A stretch of DNA of 64,000 nucleotides from Diabrotica undecimpunctata (taxonomy: Eukaryota; Arthropoda; Insecta; Coleoptera; Chrysomelidae). The DNA lies in contig NC_092806.1 of assembly GCF_040954645.1 (NCBI RefSeq), forward strand, positions 162,622,328 to 162,686,327, given 5' to 3'. A program made the translations under genes and the position numbers. The notes beneath the pieces were generated by a model. The model had not been told where the DNA came from, did no database searches, and worked only from the letters and a program-made list of their open reading frames with translations. This document shows positions 10,088 to 61,860 of this stretch, in pieces; the first letter of the stretch is position 1; the number at the start of each line of letters is the position of its first letter.

Positions 10088-10166
<79 letters not shown>

Positions 10167-13100
10167 ATGCTATTTAAATTGTACGATTTACCTTTGATCG
10201 TGGATTCAAAATATTTTCCAATTGGCGTCCTAATCGGGATAGGTAATATGACCTGAATAAAATACATAGAATTTCAACTGAACTATATGTAAGATGTCCT
10301 TTATTTTAATGAAATTTTACATAACAATCAATCCTGTAATATTTGCAATATACTAACTTTAAATATATGAGAAGTTGTTTTCTATCATGGACCCAAATGT
10401 TATTTTACATTGATTTTTAATATGTGTTATAACTAAGCTCTTTTTATAATTCCTTTTTTTTTTAAGTGATCGCAAAATTAACTGTCTCTATTATTTATTC
10501 AATTTATTTAATTAATAAATGAAAATCACACTCCGGCTCTAATGAAATTTGACTGACCTTTCCTTCTCTGCCGTTGCAATTCTATGGCCACGCCACAACA
10601 AAAAAATCCTTTCTCTGCTTCTGCTCCTATTGTGGTCCAGATGACGTACACCTTTCTCCTATCTGTCCTTGTATCTCCAAATGTTTCCGGCTTCGTCTGC
10701 TATTAATATTCTTAGGCCCTTTGGTTTTCTATCTCTCTGTACCCCGTTCCTCACACTGGTCAGCTTTTACACCGCAAATAAACACACCCGGTAAATTACG
10801 TCTTCGGGACTTCAAACAAACACAAATCACAAAGCTCCTTCCTTCTTGGACGACGAAAACTGACTAACTAACTTTTTTTTCTCTCTCCTATCTCATAGCC
10901 AAAATCAACCTCCTTGCATTCAAAAATTGACCAATAAAAATCATCCACCTCTTGTGACGTATATCCTTACCACCCAACTCTCTCTATAAAACGTCATTCG
11001 GGTTATTCCAGAAAACAAACTTCTTTAATTATTCTAACTAAATCTATCTGTTTTACAAATATTTCTTACTAATAGCTACAAACGATACCTGTTTCTCAAT
11101 TCAATGTCTTTTGTTAATAAACTTTTACCGATATAATCTTTCGGGGAGAAAACCACCGCAAATCCCGGTCTATTGTTCAAAACTTTCTATATACACTTTT
11201 ATTCCGGGTAAAACCATTCCACAATCACCGACTTATTTAAATTTCTTATCGTTAATATTTGAAAGTCTTGTCTCTGAGGCCTAATGAACAATTCTTCGAA
11301 CAACTTAAAATACATATTTTGTCTTATACAGGATGTTTGAAAATTCATATGCCCGTGTCTTTATGAAATATCAATAATTTTAATTTTTATTTAAGTAATA
11401 AAATTTGTATATCGGTTTTATTGCTTATGGACATTCAAAAGTACAACAAATCCCCGCCTTTGTAATCGATAAAATTTATCAATTTATGCAACTAAATTTT
11501 CTCGAGGCAAAATAAACGCACTTCCTGTATGCTATCTGTACTTATGCTACGTATTATCCTATCCTACTATCTACTTTATACAAATTTAAATCTTCATTCG
11601 TGATATTTATATACATCATGGATATTATAAATACCTCTGATCTTTTCAGAATCCATATGTTTCAACTCATAGCTGTTTACTCCATCTTCGTTGTTTACTA
11701 TGTATGGCCCTTCGAAAACAGGCATCAATTTTGCGCAAATACCGGTCTGAAGATTTGACACTCTTAATGCTCTTACCATTACTTTGTCACCCTTTTGGAA
11801 AGTTACTGGTCTTCGTTTCCTATTATGACCCTGTCTCTGGATGTATTTCTCATTGCTTCTTCTTAATCTCCTCTGAACGGTTTCTATAACCTGTCGATAC
11901 TCTCTTTGTTCTGGATCTTCCCACGGTCTTATCGGCATGACGCCTTTCATGATGTATTCTGGTGTTTCTTTCGTTACTGTACTTGGCATGGAATTTAGGT
12001 ACATCTCTATTTCTCCCAATTTTCTGTCCCATCGCCGATGTTGACCATCCGTTGCAATACGAAGAAATTTCGTTACCTCTTGTATAAATCGCTCAGAAGG
12101 ATTACTTTGGGGATGCCTGATGCTTACAAAGTTCGTCTCGATTCCCCGTTCTCTAAGCTGTCCCTTGAAACGATCATTTCGAAAGTACGTTGCATTGTCT
12201 AGTAAAATTTTTCTTGGGGTTCCTACCGTAGCGATGAAATTGTCTATTTTTCTCAATATTTCTTCCCCTTTTGTGGTGCGGCAACTATATAATTTTACGT
12301 ATTTTGAGAACACATCCACCATCACCAGAATATGCTTGTTCCTTTGCGTGGTCACAATTAGATCGCTTAACATGTCGATGGCTATAATGTCCAGGTTGTT
12401 CCGGGATACAATGCTCTTTGCAATATTTTCGTTTTTAAAATTCCTGCTCTTGTATTTCTGGCATACTTCGCATTTCTGTGTGATCTCTTTTGCAATGCGG
12501 TAATCTTGTCGACTGATGTAGTTTTCCCTAAATACAAGCCATACCTTTCTACTGCCAATATGTCCATTTTCCTCGTGTAGTTTCTTGATGATTCTTTCTG
12601 CCAATGTCGGTGTCACTAAATATAATTCCTTTCCGTCTATTCTCTTAAAAAATATCTCGTTTTCTAGCTCTGCTCTTCTCTTTTCTCTTTCTTCTAGGCC
12701 TTCCTGGTCGGTCCTTATCTCATTTAACGAAAATATCCCTTCGTCTTGTGTCAGTATATTCAATCCCACATGTAATGTAATTGTCTCCTTTTTTCCTGTA
12801 TCTTCGTCCCGTGTTAAAGCGTCAGCTATTATGTTGTCTTTCCCTTTGATGTATCGAAATTGGAAATCATACTCTTGTAAGAGCAGAATGCCTCTGTGTA
12901 TTCTGTTATTTACCAATCGATTCTTCATGATGTGTATCAATGCTGCATGATCCGTTTCGATGGTGAATTTAGCTCCCAATAAGTAAAACCTTAATTTGTT
13001 TACGCAAAATAGTACACTGGCGAATTCCAACTCGGTGACACTGTATTTTCTCTCATGTGTTTTAGTCACTCGAGATATAAAACATATCGGAACCTCTTGG

Positions 13101-16100
13101 CCGTTTTGTATTTGCGACAACACTCCTGCAAATTTCTGTATCGACGCATCCGTACGGAGTATAAACGGCAAATTGTAAATAGGGTGATATATTTTTGTTC
13201 CTTTAGCAAATTCTTGTTTCAATATTTTGAAAGCTTCCTCCTGTTCTTCTTTCCAATTCCATTTTGTCCCTTTCTTTAACAATTTTATTAAAGGAATTTC
13301 TTTTTGGCTTAAATCGGGAATTAATTTCTTGAAATAATTTATCGTACCGAGAAACCCTCGCAATGTTTTTAGATTTGTTGGTCTTGGGTATTCGTCGATG
13401 AGCTTTACTCTGTCCTCGGCTAGACTTACAGTTTCGGTGTCAAGTTTGAAACCCAAATAAATCACTTCCTTTTGAAAAAATTGACATTTTTCAATGTTTA
13501 GTTTTAATCCCGCTGTGTCCAATTCTTTCAAAATTATTTTGATATGTTCCACATGACTCTGCATATCTTGTGAAAAAATTAATAAATCGTCGATGTAATG
13601 GACGATGAACTCTTCATGGTGATTCAAAATGGTATGCAAAGCTCGTACAAGTGCTGCACAGGCGCTTTGTAATCCAAACGGAACTACCTTAAATCGGTAT
13701 ACTATACCATCAATTGAAAAGGCAGTGTAGTTTCTACACTTTTCAGCCAAAGGTATTAACCAAAAACTATGCTTTAGATCAATTTTTGAGAAAATATGTG
13801 ATCCCGTGATCCTTCCAAAAATGGCCTCGATATTTAACGGTGATTCATATTGTGATACTGTGTGTTGGTTGATATTTCGGGCATCTAAACAGAGTCTTAA
13901 CTCTCCACTGCTCTTCTTCACTATCACAATTGGGTTAATATAGGGTGAGTCACATCTCTCAATGATTTGATCTTCCAACATTTTTTTGATTTCTTGCTTT
14001 ACTTCTTGCCGATACTTATAAGGAATTGGATAAGTCTTCGATCGAAAATTTCTCAAGTTTTTCACCTCAAATGAGTGCTCGTATTTTGTGGCCACTCGGT
14101 TTTCCTCATTTATCAGCGTTTCATAGTCTCTTAAAATTATACGCAAATCATTTTCTTTGCCTTCTCCACATATCAATTTTTTGTCTCTCCCATCAAATTT
14201 TTCGCACATATTCACCGTGTACTCCGTGTCTTCTTCAAACACCACTGTCTCCATTGTGTCCTCTTCATTTTCCTTTGTTTTTTTTTTTGTTGGGCTCGTC
14301 TCTTCTTTTGAGGAATCCCAAGTTTTGCTTTTATTTCTTGTCAAAATTTTTCCATCTTCTTCTCCTGAGCTCGTCTCATCTTTTGAGGAATCCCAGGTTT
14401 TTTTTTCTTTGATCTTTTTCAGACCTTTTCCCCTCTTTCTTCCTTTTCCTTTCTTCGTCGCCAGGTTCATTTCCACCGTTTGTTCTTTCTCTGATTCGTC
14501 CGTAATTTGTTTCTCTTGTTGCTTATCCTGTTCTTCTTCTTTTTCCTTGGTTATTTTCATCGTATTGGTTTTGAAGTCGATCACTACATGTTTTTCCGTT
14601 AATTCGTCAACGCCTACAATCATGTCATGTGACATATTCGGCATTATTACACATTGAAGTGCATACATATTTTTTTTCAATCGTACCATTACTCGTATAC
14701 CTTCATTTATTGTTGCCAATGTCCGTTTATTTGCGCCCACTAAATTCACCCTAGGTATTTTATAAATTAGACTTGTTAAATTTACTTCTTCGATTAATTT
14801 TCTGTTGACCAGTGTTATTTCAGAGCCTGTGTCTATCATAATTTTAATTGGTTTCTCATTTATAAATCCATCCACAAATTTTAAATTAACTCCATTTCTC
14901 TTTTCATTGTTTCCTGCCAGTTTAATAAATTCCTTGGGGTGACAAAAAATTCCTGTTTGTTTCTTCGTTTTTAGTGAGCGCCTTCTTGAAAACACGCCTG
15001 TTGTTCTTCTGTGTTTTCTCTCCCGTCATCTTCTCTCTCATATTCATTTTCTTCTCTTTGCATATTATTTATTTCTCTTCTGTTCTCTTTTGGTCTATCA
15101 TTCCCGTATCGATTACCGCGAGATTCCTGTTCATTCCGTGGGTTATTGTATCTGTTTCCTTGGTATGGGCGGTTATTTCTACTCTGATTTTCCCGATCCC
15201 TGTTTTCATTCCATCTCTGGGTTCTGGGTTCATAATTCTCTCTTCCGTTCGGTCTATTTTCATATCCCCGTCTAGGTATGAATTCTCGTCTTGTATAATC
15301 TCTTCTAAAATTTTGACCTCTATCTCTATATTCTTGGTTTTCTCTTTGTCTATAATTTTCTTGCGGTCTTCTTTCTCTTCTTTCATGCCTACGTGATTCT
15401 CTCATTTGCAAAAATTGACATAAGCTGTCAATGTCCTTGTAATTTTGGAGATTTATGTGGTCTTCCAAGGTATCTTCAAAATGTCGCGATATCAACTCGA
15501 CCAATTGTTCTGATGAATAATTATATTGCAAATGTTTTGCATTATTATAGAGTTGTAATGCGTACATCTTTTCTGATACGCCCATCCTCTCATGGTATTT
15601 TCCATTTTGTAACTCTTTATTTACTTGTAGTTGCTGGATTTTTCCCCCGAAATAATTTAAGAATCTTCTCTCAAAATCTTGCCAATTGTCCAATTCTTCT
15701 TCCTTGCTGACAAACCAAAGATTTGCCTCTTCTGTGAGATGGTTTCTGATGGTTTCCTTTGCTGTTGCAAACGGTCCTATGTATTTGACTTTTTCCTTTA
15801 GGTTATTTATAAAAGGCACTGGGTGTATTTTCCTTATATCCCCGCCAAATCGTACTTTTACGTCTTCTGTGCTATGTACAATGACTTCCTTTCTTTCTAC
15901 TCCTCTTATCTCCATCTCTGCAATTTGTTTAAATCTCCTTTCCGTTTCTTTCCGGTCTTCTTGTAGCGCATTTTCAAATTTTATTTCTATCTGTTCTAAT
16001 TCCCTTTTTTGCATACTCTGAATATCCTTCATTTTAGTTTCGATTTCTTCTCTCTGCAATTCTATTTTCCTCTCTGTTTCTTCCCTACTTCTTTCTAAAC

Positions 16101-18201
16101 AGACTTTTATTTCGTTTTCATATTTGTCCATACGCGTTTCCATTTTTTGTTCCATTTTTCTTTGGTTTTCTTCCAAATTGTCCAATTTTTGTTCCGTTCT
16201 TTGTTGTGATTCATCCATTATGTGTTTTGTTTCCAGTTGATTTTTATCCATTTTTTGTGACGATTCTTGTATTTGTTGTGTCTGTATTTGCATCATAGCT
16301 AATAATTTTTCTAACATCCCTGTTTCTTTTCTTTCCTCCATTATTGTAGCATTTCCTTCATTATCCGATCCTTCATCAATAATTGTTTCCTCTTCTATCT
16401 TATCCTCTTTCCTTTCTTGCGTTTTGCTTTGACTCCTTGTGGTCGACATGTTCGTTAGATTATTTATCCCCGCCAAATATGAAACTTTGAAATTTGTGCA
16501 ATAATTTCCCCGCCAAATATAAAATTCTACTGGTCTGTTGCAACAAACGGGACTTTTCCTGTTCAAATGTAATAACTCTTGAGTACGAGTATCAAATTTC
16601 AATATCCCACAAATAAATCAAATGGTAAAATATCAAATGTCAAAATCAATCAAATCATTCAAGTATGGTAAAATTATCAAATTTAAATATCACACAAATA
16701 AATCAATTATGGTAACCTATAAATTGTCAATATCACGAATAAATCAATTATGGTAAATTGTATCTTAAAAAAAATATATAATCTTTATGTCCTCAATTTT
16801 TACATAATATTTCACTTTATCCCCGGCATATAAACTTTCAAATATCTGCTCGTCTACTCCTATCCTTTCAAATTTGCCAACTAGAAATATTTTTCAAAGC
16901 TTTACACGTTGGGGGCCATTTTGTTATGCTATTTAAATTGTACGATTTACCTTTGATCGTGGATTCAAAATATTTTCCAATTGGCGTCCTAATCGGGATA
17001 GGTAATATGACCTGAATAAAATACATAGAATTTCAACTGAACTATATGTAAGATGTCCTTTATTTTAATGAAATTTTACATAACAATCAATCCTGTAATA
17101 TTTGCAATATACTAACTTTAAATATATGAGAAGTTGTTTTCTATCATGGACCCAAATGTTATTTTACATTGATTTTTAATATGTGTTATAACTAAGCTCT
17201 TTTTATAATTCCTTTTTTTTTTAAGTGATCGCAAAATTAACTGTCTCTATTATTTATTCAATTTATTTAATTAATAAATGAAAATCACACTCCGGCTCTA
17301 ATGAAATTTGACTGACCTTTCCTTCTCTGCCGTTGCAATTCTATGGCCACGCCACAACAAAAAAATCCTTTCTCTGCTTCTGCTCCTATTGTGGTCCAGA
17401 TGACGTACACCTTTCTCCTATCTGTCCTTGTATCTCCAAATGTTTCCGGCTTCGTCTGCTATTAATATTCTTAGGCCCTTTGGTTTTCTATCTCTCTGTA
17501 CCCCGTTCCTCACACTGGTCAGCTTTTACACCGCAAATAAACACACCCGGTAAATTACGTCTTCGGGACTTCAAACAAACACAAATCACAAAGCTCCTTC
17601 CTTCTTGGACGACGAAAACTGACTAACTAACTTTTTTTTCTCTCTCCTATCTCATAGCCAAAATCAACCTCCTTGCATTCAAAAATTGACCAATAAAAAT
17701 CATCCACCTCTTGTGACGTATATCCTTACCACCCAACTCTCTCTATAAAACGTCATTCGGGTTATTCCAGAAAACAAACTTCTTTAATTATTCTAACTAA
17801 ATCTATCTGTTTTACAAATATTTCTTACTAATAGCTACAAACGATACCTGTTTCTCAATTCAATGTCTTTTGTTAATAAACTTTTACCGATATAATCTTT
17901 CGGGGAGAAAACCACCGCAAATCCCGGTCTATTGTTCAAAACTTTCTATATACACTTTTATTCCGGGTAAAACCATTCCACAATCACCGACTTATTTAAA
18001 TTTCTTATCGATAATATTTGAAAGTCTTGTCTCTGAGGCCTAATGAACAATTCTTCGAACAACTTAAAATACATATTTTGTCTTATACAGGATGTTTGAA
18101 AATTCATATGCCCGTGTCTTTATGAAATATCAATAATTTTAATTTTTATTTAAGTAATAAAATTTGTATATCGGTTTTATTGCTTATGGACATTCAAAAG
18201 T

Positions 18202-18276
<75 letters not shown>

Positions 18277-19190
18277 ACGTCATTGCATATGATCTACCGA
18301 AATCTACCGAATTTTGCCGAAGGCATCTCCCGATATTGGATAAGCTCCACGGAACATCACTGGTCTCTGTCTTTCTCGAGCGTTCTTGGCGTTCAAGACA
18401 CATTACAGCAGAAACACTTCCTTTCATTTCATATTTCTCCTATCATCGTCCTATCCTCAACAAAATCACTCAAATAAAAATTAGTTAAGTTTAAGTTTAC
18501 ATGTACAATGTTTTAGTAAACAAAATATATTTCTATAGTTAAAATTTGTGCAATTCTTATTTTCATTCAATTCCTTGTTCCTATTGTGCAATTTAATAAT
18601 ATTCATATCAATAAATATTCTACCGAGAAAAAGACGTTGTCACGTAAAATCTTCGCCCGTAAAACCGACTTTACAGGCAACCGATTTTTTTTTTGTGAGT
18701 AAAGCAATTCAATTTGTCAAAATTACATCTTACGACCTCTAATGATTAATATTTCTACAGGTGGAATTGGAATTACCCCTGTAATACAAATGTTGAGGAC
18801 AATAATCATCGACCCTGAAGACCACATATACTGTACTCTAATATATGCTTCCAAAACGGAAGCAGACATTATTTGCAAAGAAGAATTAAACGACATGGCT
18901 AAAAAAATGGAGGGCGGCCGGTTAAAAATCTGGCACACACTAGAAGAGCCTCCTCCTGGTAATTTTTTCTTATCCAATTCCAACTTATTTTATCACTTAT
19001 CACACATTTTATTTTAGACTGGCGATTCGGCAAAGGGTTCGTTTCAAAAGATATGCTGAGAGATCATCTTTTTCCACCAGGTCCAGAATCGTTAAATTTG
19101 CTATCGGGACCTTGGCCGATGCTTCAAGCTTTGGCAAAACAATTAATCGATCTGGGTTATAGCAAACAAATGTATACTAGATATTTTTGA
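6619..19190 (+). CDS. CYB5R: NADH-cytochrome b5 reductase, five 3' exons (5' end missing)
   Basis: Join 6619-6744, 7226-7344, 7931-8129, 18761-18958, 19018-19190: about 270 residues plus stop. Family members use FAD to pass electrons from NADH to membrane cytochrome b5 for fatty-acid desaturation and related lipid reactions, usually on the ER or mitochondrial outer membrane. Seen: FAD-domain RTYTP, the family signature GGKMSQYLESLKIGD, NADH-domain GGIGITP, and a C terminus LGYSKQMYTRYF resembling CYB5R1/3. Every internal exon edge has ag/gt, and the split codons join in frame. Odd: the family CGPPPM motif near the C terminus reads SGPWPM, and GGTGITP reads GGIGITP, so cofactor binding may differ; a divergent paralogue is possible. 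The first exon (start codon, membrane anchor) was not found and may lie upstream. The 10.6 kb third visible intron is filled with nested mobile DNA. Confidence 0.9.
7091..7120 (+). repeat. (CCTAA)6 interstitial telomere-like repeat
   Basis: Six perfect copies of CCTAA, the complement of the arthropod telomere unit TTAGG, in the intron between CYB5R exons a and b. Confidence 0.9.
7226..7344 (+). CDS. CYB5R: CYB5R exon b (FAD-binding motif)
   Basis: The acceptor is attttag and the donor gtaaag. It encodes HSCGQHCSF, then GGETVSRTYTPTS, the RxYTxxS flavin-binding motif, and ends GYAEFMIK. The region usually written GLPVGQHI is diverged here (GHSCGQHC). Confidence 0.9.
7931..8129 (+). CDS. CYB5R: CYB5R exon c (linker, family signature)
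   Basis: The acceptor is ttcttag and the donor gtaagg. It reads IYFKNEDPKYPAGGKMSQYL and onward; AGGKMSQYLESLKIGD is nearly invariant in the family. It ends KLGFIV plus one base, which the next exon completes to glycine. A naive ORF call starting at the internal ATG (7976) and running into the intron would be wrong. Confidence 0.93.
9871..10075. mobile_element. Small palindromic MITE
   Basis: CACCATAATGG at 9883-9893 is inverted at 10053-10063. The similarity continues inward (TTTTTAGTTTTATG and its complement) and outward (TTAAGT on both sides). About 205 bp, non-coding. Confidence 0.6.
10090..10162. repeat. (TA)n microsatellite, left part
   Basis: A run of TA dinucleotides interrupted by the gypsy insertion; the run resumes at 18208. 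Confidence 0.95.
10163..11448 (-). repeat. 3' LTR of the gypsy element
   Basis: On the + strand it starts TGTTATGC and ends GTACAACA. Being on the - strand, this left copy is the downstream LTR. The 97-codon + strand frame inside it recurs in the other LTR and is not taken as a gene. Confidence 0.95.
11449..11462 (-). promoter_or_regulatory. Candidate polypurine tract
   Basis: Directly inside the 3' LTR the - strand reads CAAAGGCGGGGATT, purine-rich except for a C. This is the expected place for plus-strand priming. Confidence 0.6.
11594..14995 (-). CDS. pol: Pol polyprotein of the gypsy element
   Basis: 1,133 residues when read from 14995, where the codon is GTG rather than ATG; the frame is open to 15025. 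Expression therefore most likely needs a -1 frameshift from gag. Domains in order: aspartic protease with DTGS at 55-58; a charged linker (150-250) with a repeated KTWDSSK(D/E)ETS at 199-209 and 224-234; reverse transcriptase with the catalytic D near 406 and YIDD at 467-470; RNase H with TDAS at 615-618 and ADALTRD near 724; integrase with zinc site H807, H812, C842, C845 and acidic triad D874, D933, E968. All key residues are present and there are no stops, so the element could be active. No env follows. Confidence 0.93.
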   Translation of the reverse strand: MFSRRRSLKTKKQTGIFCHPKEFIKLAGNNEKRNGVNLKFVDGFINEKPIKIMIDTGSEITLVNRKLIEEVNLTSLIYKIPRVNLVGANKRTLATINEGIRVMVRLKKNMYALQCVIMPNMSHDMIVGVDELTEKHVVIDFKTNTMKITKEKEEEQDKQQEKQITDESEKEQTVEMNLATKKGKGRKRGKGLKKIKEKKTWDSSKDETSSGEEDGKILTRNKSKTWDSSKEETSPTKKKTKENEEDTMETVVFEEDTEYTVNMCEKFDGRDKKLICGEGKENDLRIILRDYETLINEENRVATKYEHSFEVKNLRNFRSKTYPIPYKYRQEVKQEIKKMLEDQIIERCDSPYINPIVIVKKSSGELRLCLDARNINQHTVSQYESPLNIEAIFGRITGSHIFSKIDLKHSFWLIPLAEKCRNYTAFSIDGIVYRFKVVPFGLQSACAALVRALHTILNHHEEFIVHYIDDLLIFSQDMQSHVEHIKIILKELDTAGLKLNIEKCQFFQKEVIYLGFKLDTETVSLAEDRVKLIDEYPRPTNLKTLRGFLGTINYFKKLIPDLSQKEIPLIKLLKKGTKWNWKEEQEEAFKILKQEFAKGTKIYHPIYNLPFILRTDASIQKFAGVLSQIQNGQEVPICFISRVTKTHERKYSVTELEFASVLFCVNKLRFYLLGAKFTIETDHAALIHIMKNRLVNNRIHRGILLLQEYDFQFRYIKGKDNIIADALTRDEDTGKKETITLHVGLNILTQDEGIFSLNEIRTDQEGLEEREKRRAELENEIFFKRIDGKELYLVTPTLAERIIKKLHEENGHIGSRKVWLVFRENYISRQDYRIAKEITQKCEVCQKYKSRNFKNENIAKSIVSRNNLDIIAIDMLSDLIVTTQRNKHILVMVDVFSKYVKLYSCRTTKGEEILRKIDNFIATVGTPRKILLDNATYFRNDRFKGQLRERGIETNFVSIRHPQSNPSERFIQEVTKFLRIATDGQHRRWDRKLGEIEMYLNSMPSTVTKETPEYIMKGVMPIRPWEDPEQREYRQVIETVQRRLRRSNEKYIQRQGHNRKRRPVTFQKGDKVMVRALRVSNLQTGICAKLMPVFEGPYIVNNEDGVNSYELKHMDSEKIRGIYNIHDVYKYHE
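14971..16449 (-). CDS. gag: Gag polyprotein of the gypsy element
   Basis: 492 residues from the ATG at 16449 (MSTTRSQSK). The frame is open further upstream to 16602 but without a better ATG. Structural protein that packages element RNA in cytoplasmic particles. Seen: an acidic start, a long coiled coil of Glu/Lys/Gln heptads (about residues 45-185), a capsid-like part with NWQDFERRFLNYF (about 195-360), and an Arg/Asn/Gly-rich basic tail (about 365-470) with no CCHC zinc knuckle, so RNA binding probably uses the basic tail. The end overlaps pol by 25 bases or more, in a different frame. The frame is intact. Confidence 0.9.
   Translation of the reverse strand: MSTTRSQSKTQERKEDKIEEETIIDEGSDNEGNATIMEERKETGMLEKLLAMMQIQTQQIQESSQKMDKNQLETKHIMDESQQRTEQKLDNLEENQRKMEQKMETRMDKYENEIKVCLERSREETERKIELQREEIETKMKDIQSMQKRELEQIEIKFENALQEDRKETERRFKQIAEMEIRGVERKEVIVHSTEDVKVRFGGDIRKIHPVPFINNLKEKVKYIGPFATAKETIRNHLTEEANLWFVSKEEELDNWQDFERRFLNYFGGKIQQLQVNKELQNGKYHERMGVSEKMYALQLYNNAKHLQYNYSSEQLVELISRHFEDTLEDHINLQNYKDIDSLCQFLQMRESRRHERRERRPQENYRQRENQEYRDRGQNFRRDYTRREFIPRRGYENRPNGRENYEPRTQRWNENRDRENQSRNNRPYQGNRYNNPRNEQESRGNRYGNDRPKENRREINNMQREENEYEREDDGRENTEEQQACFQEGAH
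16905..16918 (-). promoter_or_regulatory. Candidate primer binding site
   Basis: Three bases inside the 5' LTR the - strand reads TGGCCCCCAACGTG. It starts TGG, as expected for pairing with a tRNA CCA end. I cannot assign the tRNA. Confidence 0.6.
16922..18207 (-). repeat. 5' LTR of the gypsy element
   Basis: Same length and ends as the left copy. It should hold the promoter that drives the - strand transcript of gag and pol. Confidence 0.95.
18208..18272. repeat. (TA)n microsatellite, right part
   Basis: Continuation of the TA run beyond the gypsy element. The repeat hides the exact target-site duplication, but ATAT flanks both ends. Confidence 0.95.
18761..18958 (+). CDS. CYB5R: CYB5R exon d (NADH-binding domain)
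   Basis: The acceptor is tttctacag and the donor gtaattt. It starts inside the glycine codon left open by the previous exon and reads GGIGITPVIQMLRTII, then DPEDHIYCTLIYASKTEADI, ending WHTLEEPPP plus one base. This matches the family GGTGITPMLQ...DPxD...LLFANQTExDI and the KLWxTLDxPP end. Confidence 0.93.
19018..19190 (+). CDS. CYB5R: CYB5R last exon (C terminus, stop TGA)
   Basis: The acceptor is attttag. The first two bases complete an aspartate, giving DWRFGKGFVSKDMLRDHLFP, as in the family W(D/A)Y(G/S)KGFV...MIRDHLP. Then comes LLSGPWPMLQ (the family has CGPPPM) and the end LGYSKQMYTRYF. TGA is at 19188-19190; an AATAAA is at 19393-19398. Confidence 0.92.
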
Positions 19191-25575: not shown

Positions 25576-25905
25576 ATGATGTTAAAGGCCTGTTAACGTT
25601 GTACATTAACGTTGTACGTTAACTTTTAATTAATTTTAATACTTTATTAGATCCATTTTTAGGCATGGGTCTCCCTAGTCTTTCCAATGAATTTTATTCA
25701 GTGCTATTGTCATCTATTTAATTGTTAGCATTATAAGCTCTACTTTTTAGTTCAGAGTTTTAGTTTATTTTGTTTTTCTTCTTTCAGCATCGCGATTAAG
25801 TTTTTCAGACATTAATTTTAGATTTGTTTTTGTCTCAACTATCAGAAATACACCATCAGCAAAAATTTTTGGACATATCGTGTCTTTATTGTTAGTTAGT
25901 TTTTA

Positions 25906-26688
25906 TACTAACACCACGTCATAATTAATTCGTTCTATTACTCAGTTTGTTTTTTCAATTATTTTCTAATGCATCTATTATGACCTAATATAATATACAG
26001 TTAGAGAATACGATCAATAACAGGGGAGCAATAATTTCGAATAATTTCAAGTGTTCAAATAGTAACAAAATCATTCAGCTGTCTTATACAAATTTAAAAG
26101 TGTTCATGATTTTTCATGCAAGCTGCATTTAGAACAAAATATCAGTTCAAAGTATTACCTGTGTCTTTATTACTAACACCACGTCATAATTAATTCGTTC
26201 TATTACTCAGTTTGTTTTTTCAATTATTTTCTAATGCATCTATTATGGCCTAATATAATATACAGTTAGAGAATACGATCAATAACAGGGGAGCAATAAT
26301 TTCGAATAATTTCAAGTGTTCAAATAGTAACAAAATCATTCAGCTGTCTTATACAAATTTAAAAGTGTTCATGATTTTTCATGCAAGCTGCATTTAGAAC
26401 AAAATATCAGTTCAAAGTATTACCTGTGTCTTTATTACTAACACCACGTCATAATTAATTCGTTCTATTACTCAGTTTGTTTTTTCAATTATTTTCTAAT
26501 GCATCTATTATGGCCTAATATAATATACAGTTAGAGAATACGATCAATAACAGGGGAGCAATAATTTCGAATAATTTCAAGTGTTCAAATAGTAACAAAA
26601 TCATTCAGCTGTTTTATACAAATTTAAAAGTGTTCATGATTTTTCATGCAAGCTGCATTTAGAATAAAATATCAGTTCAAAGTATTAC
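25906..26688 (+). repeat. 265-bp tandem repeat, three copies
   Basis: Copies start at 25906, 26171 and 26436 (TACTAACACCACGTC). The first two are 265 bp and the last about 253 bp. They differ at only a few bases (for example tatgacct against tatggcct). Non-coding. A partial unit edge (TGTCTTTATT) lies just upstream at 25881. Confidence 0.95.
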
Positions 26689-28369
26689 CAACTAGTCAAC
26701 ACTTCTGAAATATACCTTGAAGGACATCCGGCAAATTGTTGCTATAAATACTAGATCAATATTTAAATGCATTGAAATATTTTATGGAAAATAGCCAAAA
26801 AACGATTGAAATAAAAGACAGGCTGGAATTTTTACAACCTATTTATGACAAACCTAATGAACTTGGCTACTTGATATAATACATAAATTTTTCTTTATTA
26901 AAATCTAATTTTTTATCACAAAAATAAAGTCAGTGCCTGGATAAGATATTAGCGAGTACATGTAGTATGATGTTATTGTTGTGTATCGATGTGTTTAGTG
27001 GATAAAATAAATAATCTAAGCTTATAACAGAATTTTTTCTATTAAAAATAAAAATAATTTTACAAATACATAAAATTGGTAATAAAGGAATGATCATCAA
27101 ATCAAATTGGACATGATAAAAGTAATGAATAAAAATTATGACTTTTTTGTGGATTCGAATTTCTATCTACAGATTGTTGCAAATTGCAAATAGCTTACTA
27201 AAACAATCACTAAAGCTGCACTAGAAAACTTTTTCAAAAGCGGACTTTCCTAATCGCAAATACACCGTTTAATTGTAATATAAATATTGAATTAAAAATA
27301 GTATCCACACTTGAGCCACCGATATTTTTAGTTTTTAGTTGAAACCTATCAAAATATTGGCAGATTGTAATAAAGAAAACGATGGCTGTTTAGCGAGATT
27401 TATTACTTTAATATATACAAATGCGTGGAAGCGTTTAAACAAATTTTTGGGAAAATACAAACGGTTTGAGTGTCGGGTTAGGATTGCAAGAAATTTATTG
27501 GTTTGGCGGTGAAATAGTCATATTTTACGTAGAACGATTTCTGGAATAACCAAACTGCGTTTGACATGCATACATTTAGAATGCATGGAATCTAAAGATT
27601 TCCCCAGTTGAAGAATCAGCCAAAAATTATTAATACAAGACACAAAAAACCCAAAATTTATACAGGATCTTTACGCAATATATTCATATTGAAGATTGTA
27701 TCACGAGAGTTAAAAGTGAAACTTTTTTACAGAACTTTTATGCTATATAAAGGAAAATAAAAAATCTATCTAGACATCATATGTCACATTTTTGTAAAGT
27801 ATTGTTTATACACGTGGTTTAAAATCCCACATGCAATAATAAGATAACAAAATCGGTTAAGTCATATACGAGGTTTGTCAAAAACATTATGAGCATTTAC
27901 TGTTATAAACTTAGAGAATATTTCAATAGCAGTAGGCGATGAAATTTTAGATCCTCCTCACTAAAAATTATTTGACATTTGACATTCACATGACAAGAGT
28001 CATGTGAAGTTTGTTCATACTGTTCGATATGTTAATAGATTTGTTAATATGTAATTATCATTATAACTGTTATTATTATATAAAAAAAAAACAAAAATAT
28101 CACGCCAAAAACCTTAACGTACATCGATAAAGTTAGCAAAATACATCAGTTATTATCAAGGTTTTAACAGTAACTATGGACTGTAGGAAGTCTAGCTTAT
28201 GATCATAGTATCAACTTTGCCAGTAATCCTCCATTACCATTGGTGTTTTGATAAACATTTACTTCATCAAAATGAAAATCAAGAATTATTTAGCAACTTT
28301 GCCAGTAGAAAAACCATGATTATAAGCTCGACTTTTTTCCCACACCACGACATAGATTATGCCTGGTGG
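26689..28369. other. Intergenic, one perfect hairpin
   Basis: AT-rich. A perfect 10-bp inverted repeat TTCACATGAC/GTCATGTGAA with a 4-base loop is at 27985-28008. No gene seen. Confidence 0.4.
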
Positions 28370-45300: not shown

Positions 45301-47227
45301 TATTAGCGAAAACAAACACAAAGGATACTGGTTAGTTTGCCACTGAGACCTATTAATTAAGCAATATAGTCACAAAATAACTGTAAAGTTTATTTTTGAC
45401 TTTAAATACCACAAAATGAAGATTAAAATTAAATAATGTCTAACGAACCAAGGTCTGTAAGCCTCTGTTTTTTCACTGTCATTCTCCTTTAAACCGGCAT
45501 AGCATAAGGTAAGGAAATGTGTGGCACAAATAATTAAAAGAATGCAAAGAAAGATAAAAAATGTACTTTAGAAAGATACGAACATACCTTCTGAAGAAAT
45601 GAAGAGGCAACACTAAAAAGCCAAGTAACTTCAAAATGTTAAAAAAAAAGCCAAGAAATTAACATTGACAGCTAAATAATAGTAGGGCCGTATACGGTAA
45701 AATTATTATTATTATATTTTGAAAAAACTATTTTTTACAGATAATAAATGGTGCATGCACATTGTGTGCTATATTATTTTCATATTTGATAATAATTCGA
45801 CAATCTTTACTAATAACACCATCACTGATCTTTCTTATTTGTTCACAATTGGAACAACTATCTCATATTTACAAATAAAAACACCATAAAACAATGTATT
45901 TAAAGTAAACTGAAGTTAAAACTAACTTAAACTAACTTGATAATTTGATCGTTTTGTGTAAATGGTAGAAGAAATCAGAATGATATCGTTGTCGTGTCGT
46001 ACCGATGATATAAATCCACATATTCATAGATATAAATATCTTTTAAACACAACTTCAACAAAGACTACTTATATGTGGTAATTAGTAAAACTAAAAAGAA
46101 ATAAAACTGTGCCTTAGAACTTATATATTATTATACTGAAGACATGAAGAACGATAATTAACAATACTGTGATGACAGAAAGAGATATTAACGTACCTAG
46201 TGAAGAAATCAAAAGTGCCCAACAAATCTAGAAAAAGCCATGACAAGCTACCAGGAGAATAAAGGCAACAAAACAATCGTATGGCCCTCGTATAGTAAAA
46301 CGATTTATTGTACATTGAAATGTTTATAAAATAATCGTATGGCCCTCGTATAGTAAAACGATTTATTGTACATTGAAATGTTTATAAGAGTTTTTTAAAG
46401 CATCTGTACATACCTCCTGAAGAATGCAGTCTTGCCGAATTACTGTAACTAATTGCCTGTTCTCTACTGGTCATCAAACTGTCCACACTAAAAGCCGCCG
46501 CACTGTCCATAGCCTGCAGACTTGCCGTAACGTCACTCATTACATGTTCCTGATGAACTATCACCGATTTAGGATCGCCATATTTCGTACTCATACAGTG
46601 GCTCAGTTCGGTGTTGGGTTCTCTTTTCGGCTTGCATTCTAACTTGCTTTTGATATCTTCTAAAGGCTTTTCCTCGCGTTTGTTTATAGGAGAATCGGAC
46701 TGGATTTGCTGTCTTTTCAGCTGTTCTTCTTTTTCTCGAAGAGCGTCTTTTTTCTTGAAGCGCCTACGTCTTCTAAGGTACGAACCGTTGTCGAACATAT
46801 TGTAGGAATCGGGATCGAGGGTCCAGTAACTACCTTTGCCCGGTTTTTTATCGTCTCTAGGAACCTTCACAAAGCATTCGTTTAGACTTAAATTGTGCCT
46901 AATGGAATTCTGCCAGCCCTGTTTGTTTTCTCTGTAGTAAGGAAATCGTTCCATGATGAATTGGTAGATGCCGTTTAGAGTTATCTTTTTATCTTGTGCG
47001 TTCTGTATAGCCATCGCGATCAGAGCTATGTAGCTGTAAGGAGGTTTTACCATGTCTTTGGCAGTGCTTAGGGGGTGTTGCTGGTGGTGCCATGGCGAAG
47101 GATACCCGTACCGGGAGTACTGCTCGTACGCGTACGGATTCGATGCGGTTATAGCTGCCGAAGCCGAACTACTGTAGCTGCTGTAGCGGTTGTAAGCCGT
47201 CGGATGCTCAGAAAATATAGTATGCAT
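36072..47227 (-). CDS. croc: Forkhead transcription factor FoxC (crocodile)
   Basis: Join of 47227-46414 and 36334-36072 on the - strand: 358 residues. FoxC proteins are nuclear DNA-binding regulators; fly crocodile acts in head patterning and mesoderm. The forkhead domain is at residues 61-155, with recognition helix [13 protein letters not shown] (107-119) and a basic wing [10 protein letters not shown]. An eh1-like FSVDSLM (246-252) suggests binding of Groucho-type corepressors. The start MHTIFSEH resembles fly croc (MHTLFSD). The donor GAG|gtatgt and acceptor tttcag|GA make a phase-1 junction that restores GGMYSYCPS, and the C terminus ends SDCVGQKY. The 10,079-bp intron holds a hAT relic, a foldback element and several retrotransposon pieces. 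Stopping at the genomic stop after the donor (46382) would wrongly add CFKKLL. Confidence 0.95.
36335..37003. other. croc intron, proximal part
   Basis: AT-rich, no element recognised. Confidence 0.5.
37004..38760 (+). pseudogene. hAT-type element with ZMYM/DUF4371-like transposase relic
   Basis: Begins CAGTGACGTAGCCAGGGGG, a typical hAT end. Inside, broken frames give [49 protein letters not shown] and FPF, the usual order (LRGHDD..., then DGASGVSG...) of these transposases, which are often mistaken for host zinc-finger MYM genes. Many stops; the far inverted repeat was not found. Confidence 0.65.
38970..39370 (+). pseudogene. I/Jockey-like retrotransposon fragment (post-RT region)
   Basis: Frame 39012-39263 has [20 protein letters not shown] and IPPWQIKNP, then [11 protein letters not shown], followed near 39320 by HVYTDRF, which resembles the RNase H start YTDGSK. 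This is the linker to RNase H of such elements. Confidence 0.5.
39380..39670 (+). pseudogene. RTE-like retrotransposon C-terminal fragment
   Basis: [17 protein letters not shown] followed by [20 protein letters not shown] and LRWLV matches the usual YGSECWxLT...RGSVGVAxIxDKxRENRLRWFGH. Broken by stops. Confidence 0.65.
39671..41579. other. croc intron, no element recognised
   Basis: AT-rich with short chance frames only. Confidence 0.4.
41580..42480 (+). pseudogene. Decayed reverse transcriptase fragment
   Basis: At 42155-42330 the frame reads [20 protein letters not shown], then [13 protein letters not shown] and [10 protein letters not shown]. The catalytic YADD has become YADY. The earlier part (41753-42013) is open but not recognised. 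Confidence 0.65.
42850..43403. mobile_element. Foldback element with ~210-bp inverted arms
   Basis: The left arm (42850 to about 43060, TTAATATTAACAAAAGTAC...) is inverted in the right arm (about 43189-43403, ...GTACTTTCGTTAATGTTAA), with a spacer of about 130 bp. Long matching blocks include GTACAAGCTGAATATAG, TTGATTATACTATTTTATGA-like and ACAAAAACTAG. Non-coding. No clear target duplication; TTAA at both ends is suggestive only. Confidence 0.85.
43440..43950 (+). pseudogene. RTE-like reverse transcriptase fragment, copy 1
   Basis: 43613-43942 reads [20 protein letters not shown], then [17 protein letters not shown] and [20 protein letters not shown] boxes up to the first catalytic aspartate. 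It ends abruptly near a second, inverted copy. Confidence 0.8.
43990..44940 (-). pseudogene. RTE-like reverse transcriptase fragment, copy 2 (inverted)
   Basis: The reverse complement matches the same family as 43440-43950. The shared leader [18 protein letters not shown] and EWNISXV start at about 44930, then RT palm pieces [20 protein letters not shown] (44193-44453; the FADDQ box is mutated). Copy 1 and copy 2 are arranged tail to tail. Confidence 0.7.
44941..46274. other. croc intron with a two-copy dispersed repeat
   Basis: A diverged repeat occurs at about 45525-45715 and 46170-46330 (shared: CATACCTTCTGAAGAAAT-like start, AAAAGCCA, and GGCC(G/CTCG)TATA...GTAAAA). No coding content. 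Confidence 0.4.
46275..46387. repeat. 58-bp tandem duplication beside the croc splice donor
   Basis: AATCGTATGGCCCTCGTATA starts at 46275 and again at 46333; the two copies are virtually identical. It ends 26 bases inside the intron from the exon 1 donor. Confidence 0.9.
46414..47227 (-). CDS. croc: croc exon 1 (start, forkhead domain, eh1-like motif)
   Basis: ATG at 47227-47225 in an AACATAATG context. It encodes the Tyr/Ser/Ala-rich N terminus, the forkhead domain and a basic/acidic linker, and ends SARLHSSG plus one base before gtatgt. Confidence 0.95.
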
Positions 47228-53452: not shown

Positions 53453-53879
53453 TTTTCTCTTTCTGTTCTCTTTTTGTTTTTAGATGGCGTAGTTACGTCC
53501 GCATATAGTTATTTTGATAACTATTGTCTAGGAGGGGAGAGATTTTTGTTTTGGTTCAGAGCAGTGGCTATACCGTTCTGACGAGACCTAAAGAGGTCGA
53601 AATACGTATAAGCGGTTGTCGCTGCCCTGTATCAAAATAAAAATCTAATACCGTCATTATGTTTTATTACTTACTTCGTTTGGAGTACCAGAAACTGAAT
53701 TCACTACGAATTTTGACCAGGATGAACGGCATGTGAAATGCAATTTTAGATTCCCTTGCCGAGTAATTTATCCAGCTGTTTGTTTCGCAAATTTTCGGAA
53801 ACACAGTGGTAAAAATTTGAATTCGATTTCGCTAGGCAGAAATCGTTTGATTTCTCTTTTTTTATTTCTTGTTAATTAT
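53453..53879 (+). mobile_element. Probable element around the hammerhead ribozyme, borders unknown
   Basis: Between the TA repeat and about 53880 the base composition is less AT-rich than the neighbourhood. No ORF of a Penelope-type reverse transcriptase was seen. A retrozyme-like or truncated Penelope-like sequence is inferred only from the ribozyme. Confidence 0.35.
53564..53625 (+). ncRNA. Hammerhead ribozyme, type I
   Basis: Self-cleaving RNA motif. The core CUGACGA (53578-53584) is followed by helix II, GACCU/AGGUC with loop AAAG (53585-53598), then GAA (53599-53601). Helix III is AUA/UAU with a 2-base loop CG (53602-53609), and the cleavage triplet AUA ends at 53610, so the cut is predicted between 53610 and 53611. 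Helix I is open: ACCGUU (53572-53577) pairs with AGCGGU (53611-53616). After an internal loop (UAU against UGUC), GUGGC (53564-53568) pairs with GCUGC (53621-53625). All invariant core bases are present. AUACGUAU is self-complementary, as in ribozymes that work as dimers. Such motifs are known in Penelope-like elements, retrozymes and insect satellites; the host element is not identified. Confidence 0.88.
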
Positions 53880-54930
53880 CCATATCTAAATCGTCTTCAT
53901 CCTTTGAATCATCTCCTAATTTAACTATCATCGGTTCAATATCTGGTTCAATATCTTCCTTCAAATTGTCCACCGCAAACATTTATTGTTCTACTTTCTT
54001 GAAGTGGTTCACATAATTATGCCACTGCTCTTTAGATACGCGTTGGTAAGCGTCTTTTATCAACCGATCTACCGTTTTTTCTTTAAAATCGACGTTGTTT
54101 GAAGCTACATACCCTTTCACTTGACTCCATACCATCTCAAGCGGGTTCAGCTAGCAATGGTAAGGCGGCAGTCACAAAATCTTAATTCCATATTTTTCTG
54201 CAATTATTTCAATTTTGTTCTTGTCGTACTTGTCTCTAAATGCGGCCACAGTATCCAGTAATTCACTTTTTAGGTAATCTTCCTCGAAGAAAATGTTCTT
54301 TTCTATATGATTTTATATAAAGGCCAATCCTTGATTTACCTTTTGTTCCACAATTTTTTCGGGAATCAAATTTGCAGGAGTGGTATGACGCCTTATCCAA
54401 AACGATAATGTTTTCTTTGTCTTTCAGCAAGTTTGGAATTAACGTCTTCTCAAACGATTCTTCATATATATCCCTGTCCATTTCTTCGTGGTAATCTGCG
54501 GTTCTCTTCTTTGCCAAGAGAGTTAATTCGGCCCATGCCACAAAAGCAGTTTTGCTCCAAGCATGAACAAACCGAGGACCTCTTTGAGTTGGAGCTTTCA
54601 GTTCAGTAGTGTCCCTCTATTCCTTTTTGACTAAAGCACCGAGGTTAGTCCAAGACTCATTGGTATAAACAAGGTTTACATTATTCTTCTTCCGTAATTT
54701 TTTTATTTTTTTTTTATTTGTCTGAGGTACTTGTGTCTTCAGGATATGATACCTTTTCTTTTTATCATTAGTTTATCATTATCGAATCTCAACCTCTCTT
54801 ACCTTATTCAAAACCCATGTCATTTAGTAGCCTACGAAATGTGGTTTTTGAAAAAGCTGGTAGATCCTCATCATCCTTTACTCTGTTCATTATGCTATGT
54901 GCTATAGCACTACTATGCTAATATATGAGA
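53880..54930 (-). pseudogene. IS630/Tc1-like DDE transposase, copy A
   Basis: On the - strand: MGFE near 54815, WTNLGALVKK (usual DESW region), RGPRF, then MAWAELTLLAKKRTADYHEE, FEKTLIPNLLKDKENIIVLD and KASYHS (catalytic DNAxYHS). The 3' part matches the motif HCELNPIEMVWSQVKGYVAS in broken form. The same family as 60826-61860, with different damage. Confidence 0.75.
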
Positions 54931-59156: not shown

Positions 59157-59590
59157 AAAAAAATCGGTTTCCTGTAAAGTCGGTTTTACGGGCGAATATT
59201 TTACGTGACAACGTCTTTTTCTCGGTAGAATATTTATTGATATGAATATTATTAAATTGCACAATAGGAACAAGGAATTGAATGAAAATAAGAATTGCAC
59301 AAATTTTAACTATAGAAATATATTTTGTTTACTAAAACATTGTACATGTAAACTTAAACTTAACTAATTTCTATTTGAGTGATTTTCACCGATTCAACGC
59401 GCCTAATTCTCTAGTGCTGCGCGCGCAGCGGACCGATCATGTTTGAGTGGGAGAGAGACGCAAGGCATTCGCCGGTCCGGCGGGCCTCTCTCTCGTTCGG
59501 TGACTCATCGTAACAGACGTGAGCGGGCGTTACACTTTTTCATGAATGACTCCGAGCCACAACCTAATTTAAGACGTTGTCACGTCAAAA
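59157..59590 (-). mobile_element. Deletion derivative of the CYB5R-intron element
   Basis: The reverse complement equals 8992 to about 9195 joined directly to about 18462-18694, with few mismatches. The inverted ACGTGACAACGTCTT is present at both ends (59202 and 59586). 434 bp, non-coding. Confidence 0.9.
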
Positions 59591-60329
59591 AAAAGGCAAA
59601 AAACGCATAGATTTTGAAAAACCATTAGACAGAGTCGATTAATACAAACCATTTAAAATTATAGAAAACACCTAATTGGAACAATCGGAACGATTAAAAC
59701 AAAGATATGACTCTAGAATCCAAATGTTCGTGCTTAACGATCTCAAAATACAAATTAAACGTTTAAATTTATTTCATGCATTTCAAGATGTAAATCAAAA
59801 AGTCAAAAATACATTATTTTTACTTAAAATGTTAATTTATTCTCATTAAATACATTAGATAATACAAGTAATTCAAACATATATTCGTTCCAGATGATCC
59901 TTCTTGCGGGCGATTATGTGAGTATATTTTTATAAACTAGGTATATTTTAATAGTTCTATTCCCTAGTCCTATTTCCAAATAGATTACCTACATTTTCTT
60001 TTTAAGTCGTGATTATAAGTTGAAAAGAAAAATGTATGTCGATTAGAAAGAGACAAATATTATTGATGTATTTTTATAATTTATGTATTTTTGTGTACAG
60101 AGCAGCCCAAGGAAGTTGAGACACAATCAACAAAAGAATCGTGGGAGCTCTGTAGACCATAAATATTGACTTAATCATATTAGAAATTACAAAAAATGGA
60201 AATTAAATATTAAAACTTATGCATGAATGTTTAGTCCAACTTTTATTATTCTTTGTTTTTTTCTTATGAGAATTATCCAACATTGATAAAATGATGATCA
60301 GCCTTTAATGAGATGGATCTTAATAAAGT
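59591..60329. other. No gene recognised
   Basis: AT-rich. Confidence 0.4.
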
Positions 60330-60825: not shown

Positions 60826-61860
60826 TCTATAATTGTGCCACTGCTCTTAAGATATGCGTTGGTAAGCTTCTTTTATCAACCGATCTACCGTTTTTCCTTT
60901 ACAATCGACGTTGTTTGAAGCCACATACCTTTTCACTTGACTCCACACCATCCTAATCCGGTTCAGTTCGCAATGGTAAGGCGGCAGTCTCAAAAATCTT
61001 AACGTTTCCGTTTTTGTACTTGTTGTATTCGCCTCTAACTGCGGTCGCATTATCCAGTAATTCACTTTTTAGGTAATCTTCCTCGAAGAAAAAGTTAGCC
61101 AATCCTTGATTTGCCTTTTGTTCCACAATTTTTTTCGGTATATCCAAAACGGCAACGTATTCTTTGTCTTTCCGAAAGTTTGAAATTAACGTCTCAAACC
61201 ATTCTTCCTATAGATCATCGTCCATTTTGTCGTTGTAATCAGTGGTTCCGTTCTTGGCCAAGACTGTAAATTCGGCCCATGCCACAAAACCATTTTCGCC
61301 TCCAGCATGAAGAAAAACAAACCGAGGACCTCTTTGGGTTGGACCTTTTAGTCCAGTACAGAGCCCTTTTATGAAGGCTTCTCGTGAATTATTGATCCTT
61401 GTGTCCCTCCATTCGTTTTTGACTGAAGCACCGACGTTAATCCAAGACTAATCGTTATAAACAAGGTTTACATTATCCTTCTTCCTCAATGTTTTTATTT
61501 GTCTGCAGAATATGATATCTTTTCTTTCCGTCATTATCAAATCTCGACCTCTTTTACCATATTCAAAACCCATGTAATTCAGTAGCCTACCAAATGTGGT
61601 TTTTGAAAAAGCTGGTAGGTCCTCATCATTCTTCAATCTGTCTGTTCATTATGCTGTCAACGGTTCGTGGTATGTTTTAAAAAAAAAAAAAAAATCATGT
61701 ACAATTTTCCTTATCCGAGATTTCACTCCCTTATCGTAAGTATTCTCACGTGAATTTGACTGGAAACTGTTTTTCTTCCCCTTTTGTATCGGTTTCAGTT
61801 CTCCTTGCTGGACTTCTTCGCGGATGTCATAATAAATTTTGCTCACTCATCACATTTTAC
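60826..61860 (-). pseudogene. IS630/Tc1-like DDE transposase, copy B
   Basis: Starts MSKIYYDIREEVQQGELKP (61846). Then LPAFSKTTFGRLLNYMGFEY, a DESW region mutated to a stop (YND*SWINVGASVK), RGPRFVFLHAGGENGFVAWA, EEDYLKSELLDNATA, then CELNRIRMVWSQVKRYVASN and KTVDRLIKEAYQ. Same family and orientation as copy A. Several stops and frameshifts, so inactive. Confidence 0.8.

Follow-up and report, generated by a model that had tools for sequence, protein, structure and literature searches.

Plant LTR retrozymes are reportedly non-autonomous elements with a hammerhead ribozyme and a circular RNA, features shared with the model proposed here for a small repeat of the leaf beetle Diabrotica undecimpunctata. 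They differ from it in having a type III hammerhead, LTRs and target duplications of 4 bp, according to the accessible text of Cervera and de la Pena 2020 (PMC7229834). The beetle repeat resembles the metazoan non-LTR retrozymes of the same source, which consist of tandem repeats of 150-450 bp (about 350-390 bp in mussel) with a type I hammerhead and which occur in thousands of copies with target duplications of more than 4 bp; low GC content and the lack of LTRs, PBS and PPT also characterise that group. It differs from them in its outward-facing arrays, its fixed pair of start sites and its target motif, none of which is described in the accessible parts of that report, where the mobilising element was left open; insertion ends of this kind are likewise not described for animal retrozymes in the accessible parts of PMC7761336. 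The W-element repeats of schistosomes are similar by description, being hammerhead-bearing repeats with a possible target duplication noted for one element in the text available (PMC8490949).

There is also a likeness to Penelope elements with minimal hammerheads, as described in the accessible parts of the reports on Poseidon of Anolis (PMC11167929) and on the rotifer Adineta (PMC3846280) and as seen in one Penelope family of the beetle itself (family A), all of which have inverted head-to-head copies and, as judged from a tail that is optional at one of the inverted ends, two reverse-transcription start sites shortly past the hammerhead. In vitro, the Anolis Penelope protein cuts both target strands, mostly at ATT, and starts reverse transcription internally at two sites (PMC11167929, accessible text). 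In Adineta, a tail is optional on one of the two inverted pLTRs and the duplications are 8-10 bp long, and this optional-tail pattern is explained by the two start sites of the Anolis enzyme, as far as the accessible parts of PMC3846280 and PMC11167929 go. Unlike Penelope elements, the beetle repeat does not encode a protein of this kind; its helix I is complete, its helix III is longer than that of family A, its start sites are about 200 nt apart and its targets are other than (AT)n.

The hammerhead ribozyme

The window is the whole stretch of 64,000 nucleotides that was analysed, and all positions refer to it unless a locus is named. The following features were assigned to the repeat and its ribozyme.

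53466..53861, plus strand: copy of the retrozyme unit, about 386 bp, roughly one lap that begins and ends at start site 2 (supported by the alignment of 20 loci and by the tandem repeat length near 386 bp)
53561..53625, plus strand: hammerhead ribozyme of type I, with the lower and upper parts of helix I (pairing of core and helices, Rfam, folding z-score)
53578..53584, plus strand: catalytic core CUGACGA (CTGACGA in DNA; sequence pairing and Rfam)
53585-53589/53594-53598, plus strand: helix II, 5 bp, with an AAAG loop (pairing)
53599-53601, plus strand: GAA (sequence)
53602..53609, plus strand: helix III, 3 bp with a 2-nt CG loop, self-complementary ATACGTAT (AUACGUAU), the A15.1-U16.1 stretch (sequence and pairing)
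between 53610 and 53611, plus strand: predicted self-cleavage point, with A53610 as H17 (homology to the hammerhead core)

A sequence-only reading had proposed a complete type I hammerhead at this place, and every piece that it named was located, including the palindromic minimal helix III of 3 bp with a 2-base loop; the cut that it predicted between 53610 and 53611 is the position expected from homology to the core. The invariant core, the three helices and the open helix I that define type I (Rfam RF00163) are all present. Its lower helix I of 6 bp (53572-53577/53611-53616) stands as proposed, and the upper part, given there as 5 bp, is 6 bp long and extends to 53561/53625, with an internal loop between the two parts. 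The Rfam model Hammerhead_1 matched 53572-53616 over its full length with 32.6 bits (E 3.1e-6 in the 601 bases searched), so that the suggested covariance-model check returned a type I match that lies 1.4 bits below the gathering score of 34 bits, and for this reason an Rfam scan of the whole window at the gathering threshold lists nothing. A descriptor of the core and three helices, run on the window and 22 further loci (L029-L050), gave the window hammerhead as its single match. The 78-nt stretch has a folding z-score of -4.3, none of 200 shuffles being equally stable. The hammerhead of the window is real.

The Rfam consensus itself carries a ACGCGCGU palindrome at the position of helix III, and a short helix III is therefore ordinary for the hammerhead family. 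For the monomer, nearest-neighbour energies favour a mispaired core, which is also what the minimum-energy fold of the 78-nt stretch contains. A double-hammerhead dimer is predicted at -46.1 kcal/mol, which is better than two monomers without helix III (-35.8) but loses to two misfolded monomers (-50.6) and to the best two-strand fold (-56.0). It is plausible that the hammerhead would act as a dimer. Vertebrate retrozymes need dimers, and most invertebrate retrozymes cleave efficiently, according to the accessible text of PMC7229834. Among 31 non-seed segments the mean pairwise difference was 0.034 in the hammerhead and 0.028-0.050 elsewhere in the unit; the ribozyme is not clearly better conserved than the remaining unit in these copies, and its conservation is for that reason not used as an argument here. 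At two loci (L071 and L072) H17 is C instead of A, a change compatible with hammerhead cleavage and common to both arms of each locus.

The retrozyme unit and its copies

With no more than two mismatches allowed, the 38-nt hammerhead core occurs 1643 times (805 + 838) in the 1.74-Gb genome, whereas its reversed pattern, searched in the same genome as a control, occurs 0 times; related copies are thus present. A second probe from a different part of the unit gave 1325 first-look candidates and the core 1378, with 40 scored for each. The copies are dispersed across ten contigs (C1-C10) as short arrays. All 43 loci analysed (20 + 8 + 10 + 5, with L051-L055 picked for opposite strands and L027 and L028 for close copies) contain pieces of the unit, which recurs about every 386 bp, and 14 tandem units of 386-390 bp, measured from cut to cut, were found among 38 of them. 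The units repeat head to tail, and single-orientation arrays reach about four units (L020). The window copy, from 53466 to about 53861, is a single lap in which about 10 bp of the unit are present at both ends, and a clear target duplication was not seen around it. GC content at 52-54 kb of the window is 0.30. Segments from different loci diverge by about 4.2% and those of one locus by 3.8%, from which the copies look like one burst from a near-uniform source followed by decay.

The carrier of the ribozyme is most likely a non-coding, non-autonomous non-LTR retrozyme of 386 bp, with at least about 1600 hammerhead copies, and the tie to animal retrozymes and Penelope-like elements that had been suggested from the sequence holds in this form. 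Its unit falls within the 150-450 bp of tandem repeats with a type I hammerhead that mark metazoan non-LTR retrozymes, and it has their many dispersed copies and their duplications of more than 4 bp. Two Penelope protein queries gave no match in the window at E 1e-4; for this reason, and because the unit is only 386 bp long, the retrozyme is not a Penelope-like element itself. A search of phage and viral collections gave no match.

Insertion footprint

A target duplication of at least 12 bp was found at 15 of 38 loci, compared with 4 of 1406 mismatched flank pairs, and at 19 oriented sites its length was 12 bp (11 sites), 13 bp (7) or 14 bp (1). Both orientations occur at 24 of the 43 loci (20 of 38 and 4 of 5), five of which (L051-L055) had been chosen beforehand for opposite strands, and the minus copy always lies to the left and the plus copy to the right, which places the 3' ends outward. 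The same order was seen in six opposite-strand pairs within 2 kb among the matches listed, which are L028 and L051-L055 again. The outer ends of the other copies fall into two types, and these correspond to two putative sites of the unit.

53650..53662 (end at about 53661), plus strand: inferred reverse-transcription start site 1, ...CCGTCATTATG then TTTTATT, where other copies have their type 1 outer end
53850..53867 (end at about 53861), plus strand: inferred reverse-transcription start site 2, ...GATTTCTCTTTTT, where other copies have their type 2 outer end, scattered somewhat along the T-run

Site 1 lies 51 nt past the predicted ribozyme cut and site 2 about 251 nt past it. By boundary positions, both ends could be typed in 18 of the 24 two-orientation loci (14 + 4), and in every one of the 18 the two ends differ in type; in the others one end is untyped (L009, L021, L051, L060) or the element extends past the analysed stretch (L059, L061). 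When loci are instead taken by a duplication of at least 11 bp, there are 23, or 22 after L024 is dropped for a repeat inside the element, and 21 of the 43 loci fall outside this set. One end of each type is present in 18 of these 22 loci, four are incomplete and none has two ends alike. Sixteen of the 18 were typed by script (at least 6 matching nt) and two by alignment, namely L068, with one substitution in the end match, and L072, with an end cut short. The type 1 end of L012, L014 and L062 is reduced to 6 nt that lie directly at the junction or no more than 2 nt from it, and in a random control 72 of 4000 flanks matched site 1 equally well anywhere in their last 12 nt. The four incomplete loci have a 4-nt remnant only (L067) or a single typed end (L026, L057, L063); in L026 and L057 the duplication itself is doubtful. 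A counter-example is L015, which has a 9-bp duplication and a type 1 end and in which a type 2 end is not visible.

Among the 18 single-orientation loci (of 38), ends at site 1 are present in six (L011, L015, L023, L024, L027, L063) and ends at site 2 in eleven, and one locus (L010) is interrupted by a contig end. Some single-orientation loci hide a tiny opposite end (L012, L014, L062 and L067, and also L073), and two-ended insertion may for this reason be the rule. The duplications of the 19 oriented sites lie within a target motif AAN-[12-13 bp]-NTT, where position -3 is A in 14 of them and position -2 in 16, and where T occupies +1 in 17 and +2 in 13; this symmetric motif is read as a cut just before NTT on each target strand. 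The insertions have the inverted head-to-head copies, the variable 5' ends and the two 3' ends, one on each side, by which Penelope-type insertion is recognised. No description of fixed paired insertion ends for animal retrozymes was found in the titles and abstracts of a literature search that lay largely outside subscription journals.

A probable common template for both arms

Plain divergence was tried as a test for a shared template and rejected, as the within-locus and between-locus values given above are uninformative; the sharing of rare variants was adopted for that reason. Rare variants are common to opposite arms in 52 of 283 ordered comparisons and are shared between loci in 654 of 37113, a difference of about ten times between sets of comparisons that are not independent of one another, and with L051 and L061 left out the sharing between opposite arms is 22 of 149. 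Gene conversion between the arms could give equal sharing, and a common template is the simpler explanation.

The 14 cut-to-cut units folded as circles at a mean of -114.5 kcal/mol, and one circular unit reached -120.3 kcal/mol, compared with a mean of -83.7 (sd 5.9) for 60 single-nucleotide shuffles. Both end motifs could be located in eight of the 14 units and the other six were dropped. In these eight units the start sites are predicted to be unusually unpaired (83rd-99th and 91st-98th percentile) and to lie 13-24 steps apart in the structure graph in seven units and 47 in L024, compared with means of 48-64 at equal separation; as the units are near-identical, this amounts to one prediction and not eight.

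Proposed insertion cycle and alternatives

It is probable, when taken jointly with the identification of the carrier as a retrozyme, that Penelope-type machinery reverse-transcribes one retrozyme RNA, itself probably circular, into both target strands. The copies, their ends and duplications, the target motif, the opposite polarity and the shared variants of the arms are directly read from the genome, and the cycle that would produce them may run as follows. Transcripts of tandem copies would cleave themselves at the hammerhead, and the monomers would be closed into circles. A Penelope-type reverse transcriptase with a GIY-YIG endonuclease would place one nick in each target strand, immediately before NTT and 12-13 bp from the nick in the other strand. 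A single retrozyme RNA would then be the template for both free 3' ends, with synthesis from site 1 for one end and from site 2 for the other. Reverse transcription would cover anything from a fraction of a lap up to about four laps, and the joining of the two cDNAs in mid-element would leave outward-facing arrays between the 12-13 bp duplications. More tentatively, and with slightly less than even confidence, one circular RNA may be used at once by a dimer of the Penelope-type protein, with one protomer starting at site 1 and the other at site 2 on opposite strands, and with both sites unpaired and close together in the folded circle. The element would then be an RNA that carries its own pair of start points for a two-strand insertion, which would account for the lack of typed insertions with matching ends. 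Counted against a Penelope reading is the distance of about 200 nt between the start sites, compared with a Penelope tail of 30-40 bp.

U runs stop Pol III, and as site 2 reads CTCTTTTT, the same Penelope machinery could have used a linear multimeric template with site 2 as its 3' end, so that only site 1 would reflect internal priming and circles would play no part. The Anolis protein supports such a template, as it inserts in vitro without ribozyme cleavage, uses unprocessed RNA and still inserts hammerhead mutants according to the accessible text of PMC11167929, a result that is counted against the cycle proposed above. However, arrays pass through site 2 for about four units in L020, and the U run thus does not end every template; in addition, published metazoan retrozymes accumulate as circles (PMC7229834, accessible text). 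A linear template is regarded as unlikely.

LINEs also produce variable duplications and 5' inversions, and mobilisation by a LINE instead of Penelope machinery, in which twin priming and 5' inversion would accompany target-primed reverse transcription, would yield elements that look similar in these respects. In twin priming, however, the outer end of the inverted piece falls at an arbitrary internal place, whereas in 18 of the 22 insertions one outer end lies at each of the two fixed sites. Both strands show the target motif symmetrically, and no poly-A tail was seen at the outer ends examined, the type 2 ends running into T stretches of varying length. Although LINEs were left open as the mobiliser in the accessible text of PMC7229834, their involvement here appears decidedly improbable. 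An ordinary satellite DNA that carries the hammerhead as a passenger and has multiplied through unequal exchange and segmental duplication would fit the tandem arrays of about 386 bp and a ribozyme not clearly more conserved than its neighbouring parts, but it is very hard to reconcile with short arrays dispersed on contigs C1-C10, many of which have a duplicated target, end at fixed sites and contain inverted arms.

Penelope-like elements of the genome

Copies with a GIY-YIG domain are numerous, with at least 73 matches at E <= 0.001 among the 150 scored of 6687 candidates. The Penelope sample comprised 12 loci (L039-L050) of three families, with reverse transcriptase and endonuclease domains in L039 and L040 (the reverse transcriptase of L039 being 0.6 bits below the cut-off) and outward-facing copies in nine of the 12 (L039, L041-L047, L050). 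The three families lie mostly inside (AT)n repeats and the retrozymes with clear duplications do not, for which reason the Penelope partner of the retrozyme could be another family. Comparison of the retrozyme unit with the 12 loci gave similarity limited to short chance matches.

Family A has a minimal hammerhead, CTGATGA...GAAATATT, in its pseudo-LTR, spotted by eye in an alignment. A count by eye puts the end of the element 68 nt past the predicted cut, and the tail adds about 40 nt; one tailed and one untailed end are present in both loci where both ends are seen (L042 and L047). This agrees with the pattern of the rotifer elements, and the retrozyme follows the like rule with two sites of its own. 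Rfam models found no hammerhead in eight Penelope loci and the descriptor found none in all 12; as the hammerhead of family A was found only by eye, the descriptor evidently misses minimal forms. Families B and C contain motif-like hammerhead stretches, seen by eye only. In one family A locus a mir-981 gene (L042, 6430-6507, 62.6 bits) lies a few kb from the Penelope-like insertion.

Other features of the window

An LTR retrotransposon at 10159-18208 has a minus-strand open reading frame for protease, reverse transcriptase, RNase H and integrase (Pfam) and two LTRs of 1.29 kb that are 99.8% identical, from which its insertion appears to be recent. The flanks around it (8983-9192 and 18462-18691) together match a contiguous 440-bp stretch at 59157-59596 with 98-99% identity, as if the region had been inserted into a copy of another repeat. 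Three head-to-tail units of 265 bp at 25899-26689, about 98-99% identical, may be another small tandem mobile element; this array was considered as a ribozyme carrier and rejected, with no Rfam match within it and a sub-threshold snoRNA match beside it only. Two related degraded repeat copies (54013-54608 and 60829-61358) are 81-84% identical, and the retrozyme lies about 150 bp upstream of the first; their minus-strand frames look transposase-like by eye, and the two pieces tried gave no Pfam match. The stretch 46385-47227 holds a forkhead exon (crocodile/FoxC) that shares 88% identity with a Diorhabda gene, and the other best named protein matches in the window are to proteins of leaf beetles and other beetles, which points to a host near Chrysomelidae, most likely a leaf beetle.

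Implications

The 386-bp unit is a new addition to the metazoan non-LTR retrozymes, and its insertion footprint points to Penelope-type two-strand priming. As for what mobilises animal retrozymes, their repeats show no conserved motif that would tell, according to the accessible text of PMC7761336. The footprint described here, with two fixed start sites, one per strand, a symmetric motif and a duplication of 12-13 bp, matches the known behaviour of Penelope enzymes. It offers a concrete and testable model of how small self-cleaving circular RNAs may be turned into DNA, as well as a clean collection of insertions in which target-primed reverse transcription on two strands can be studied.
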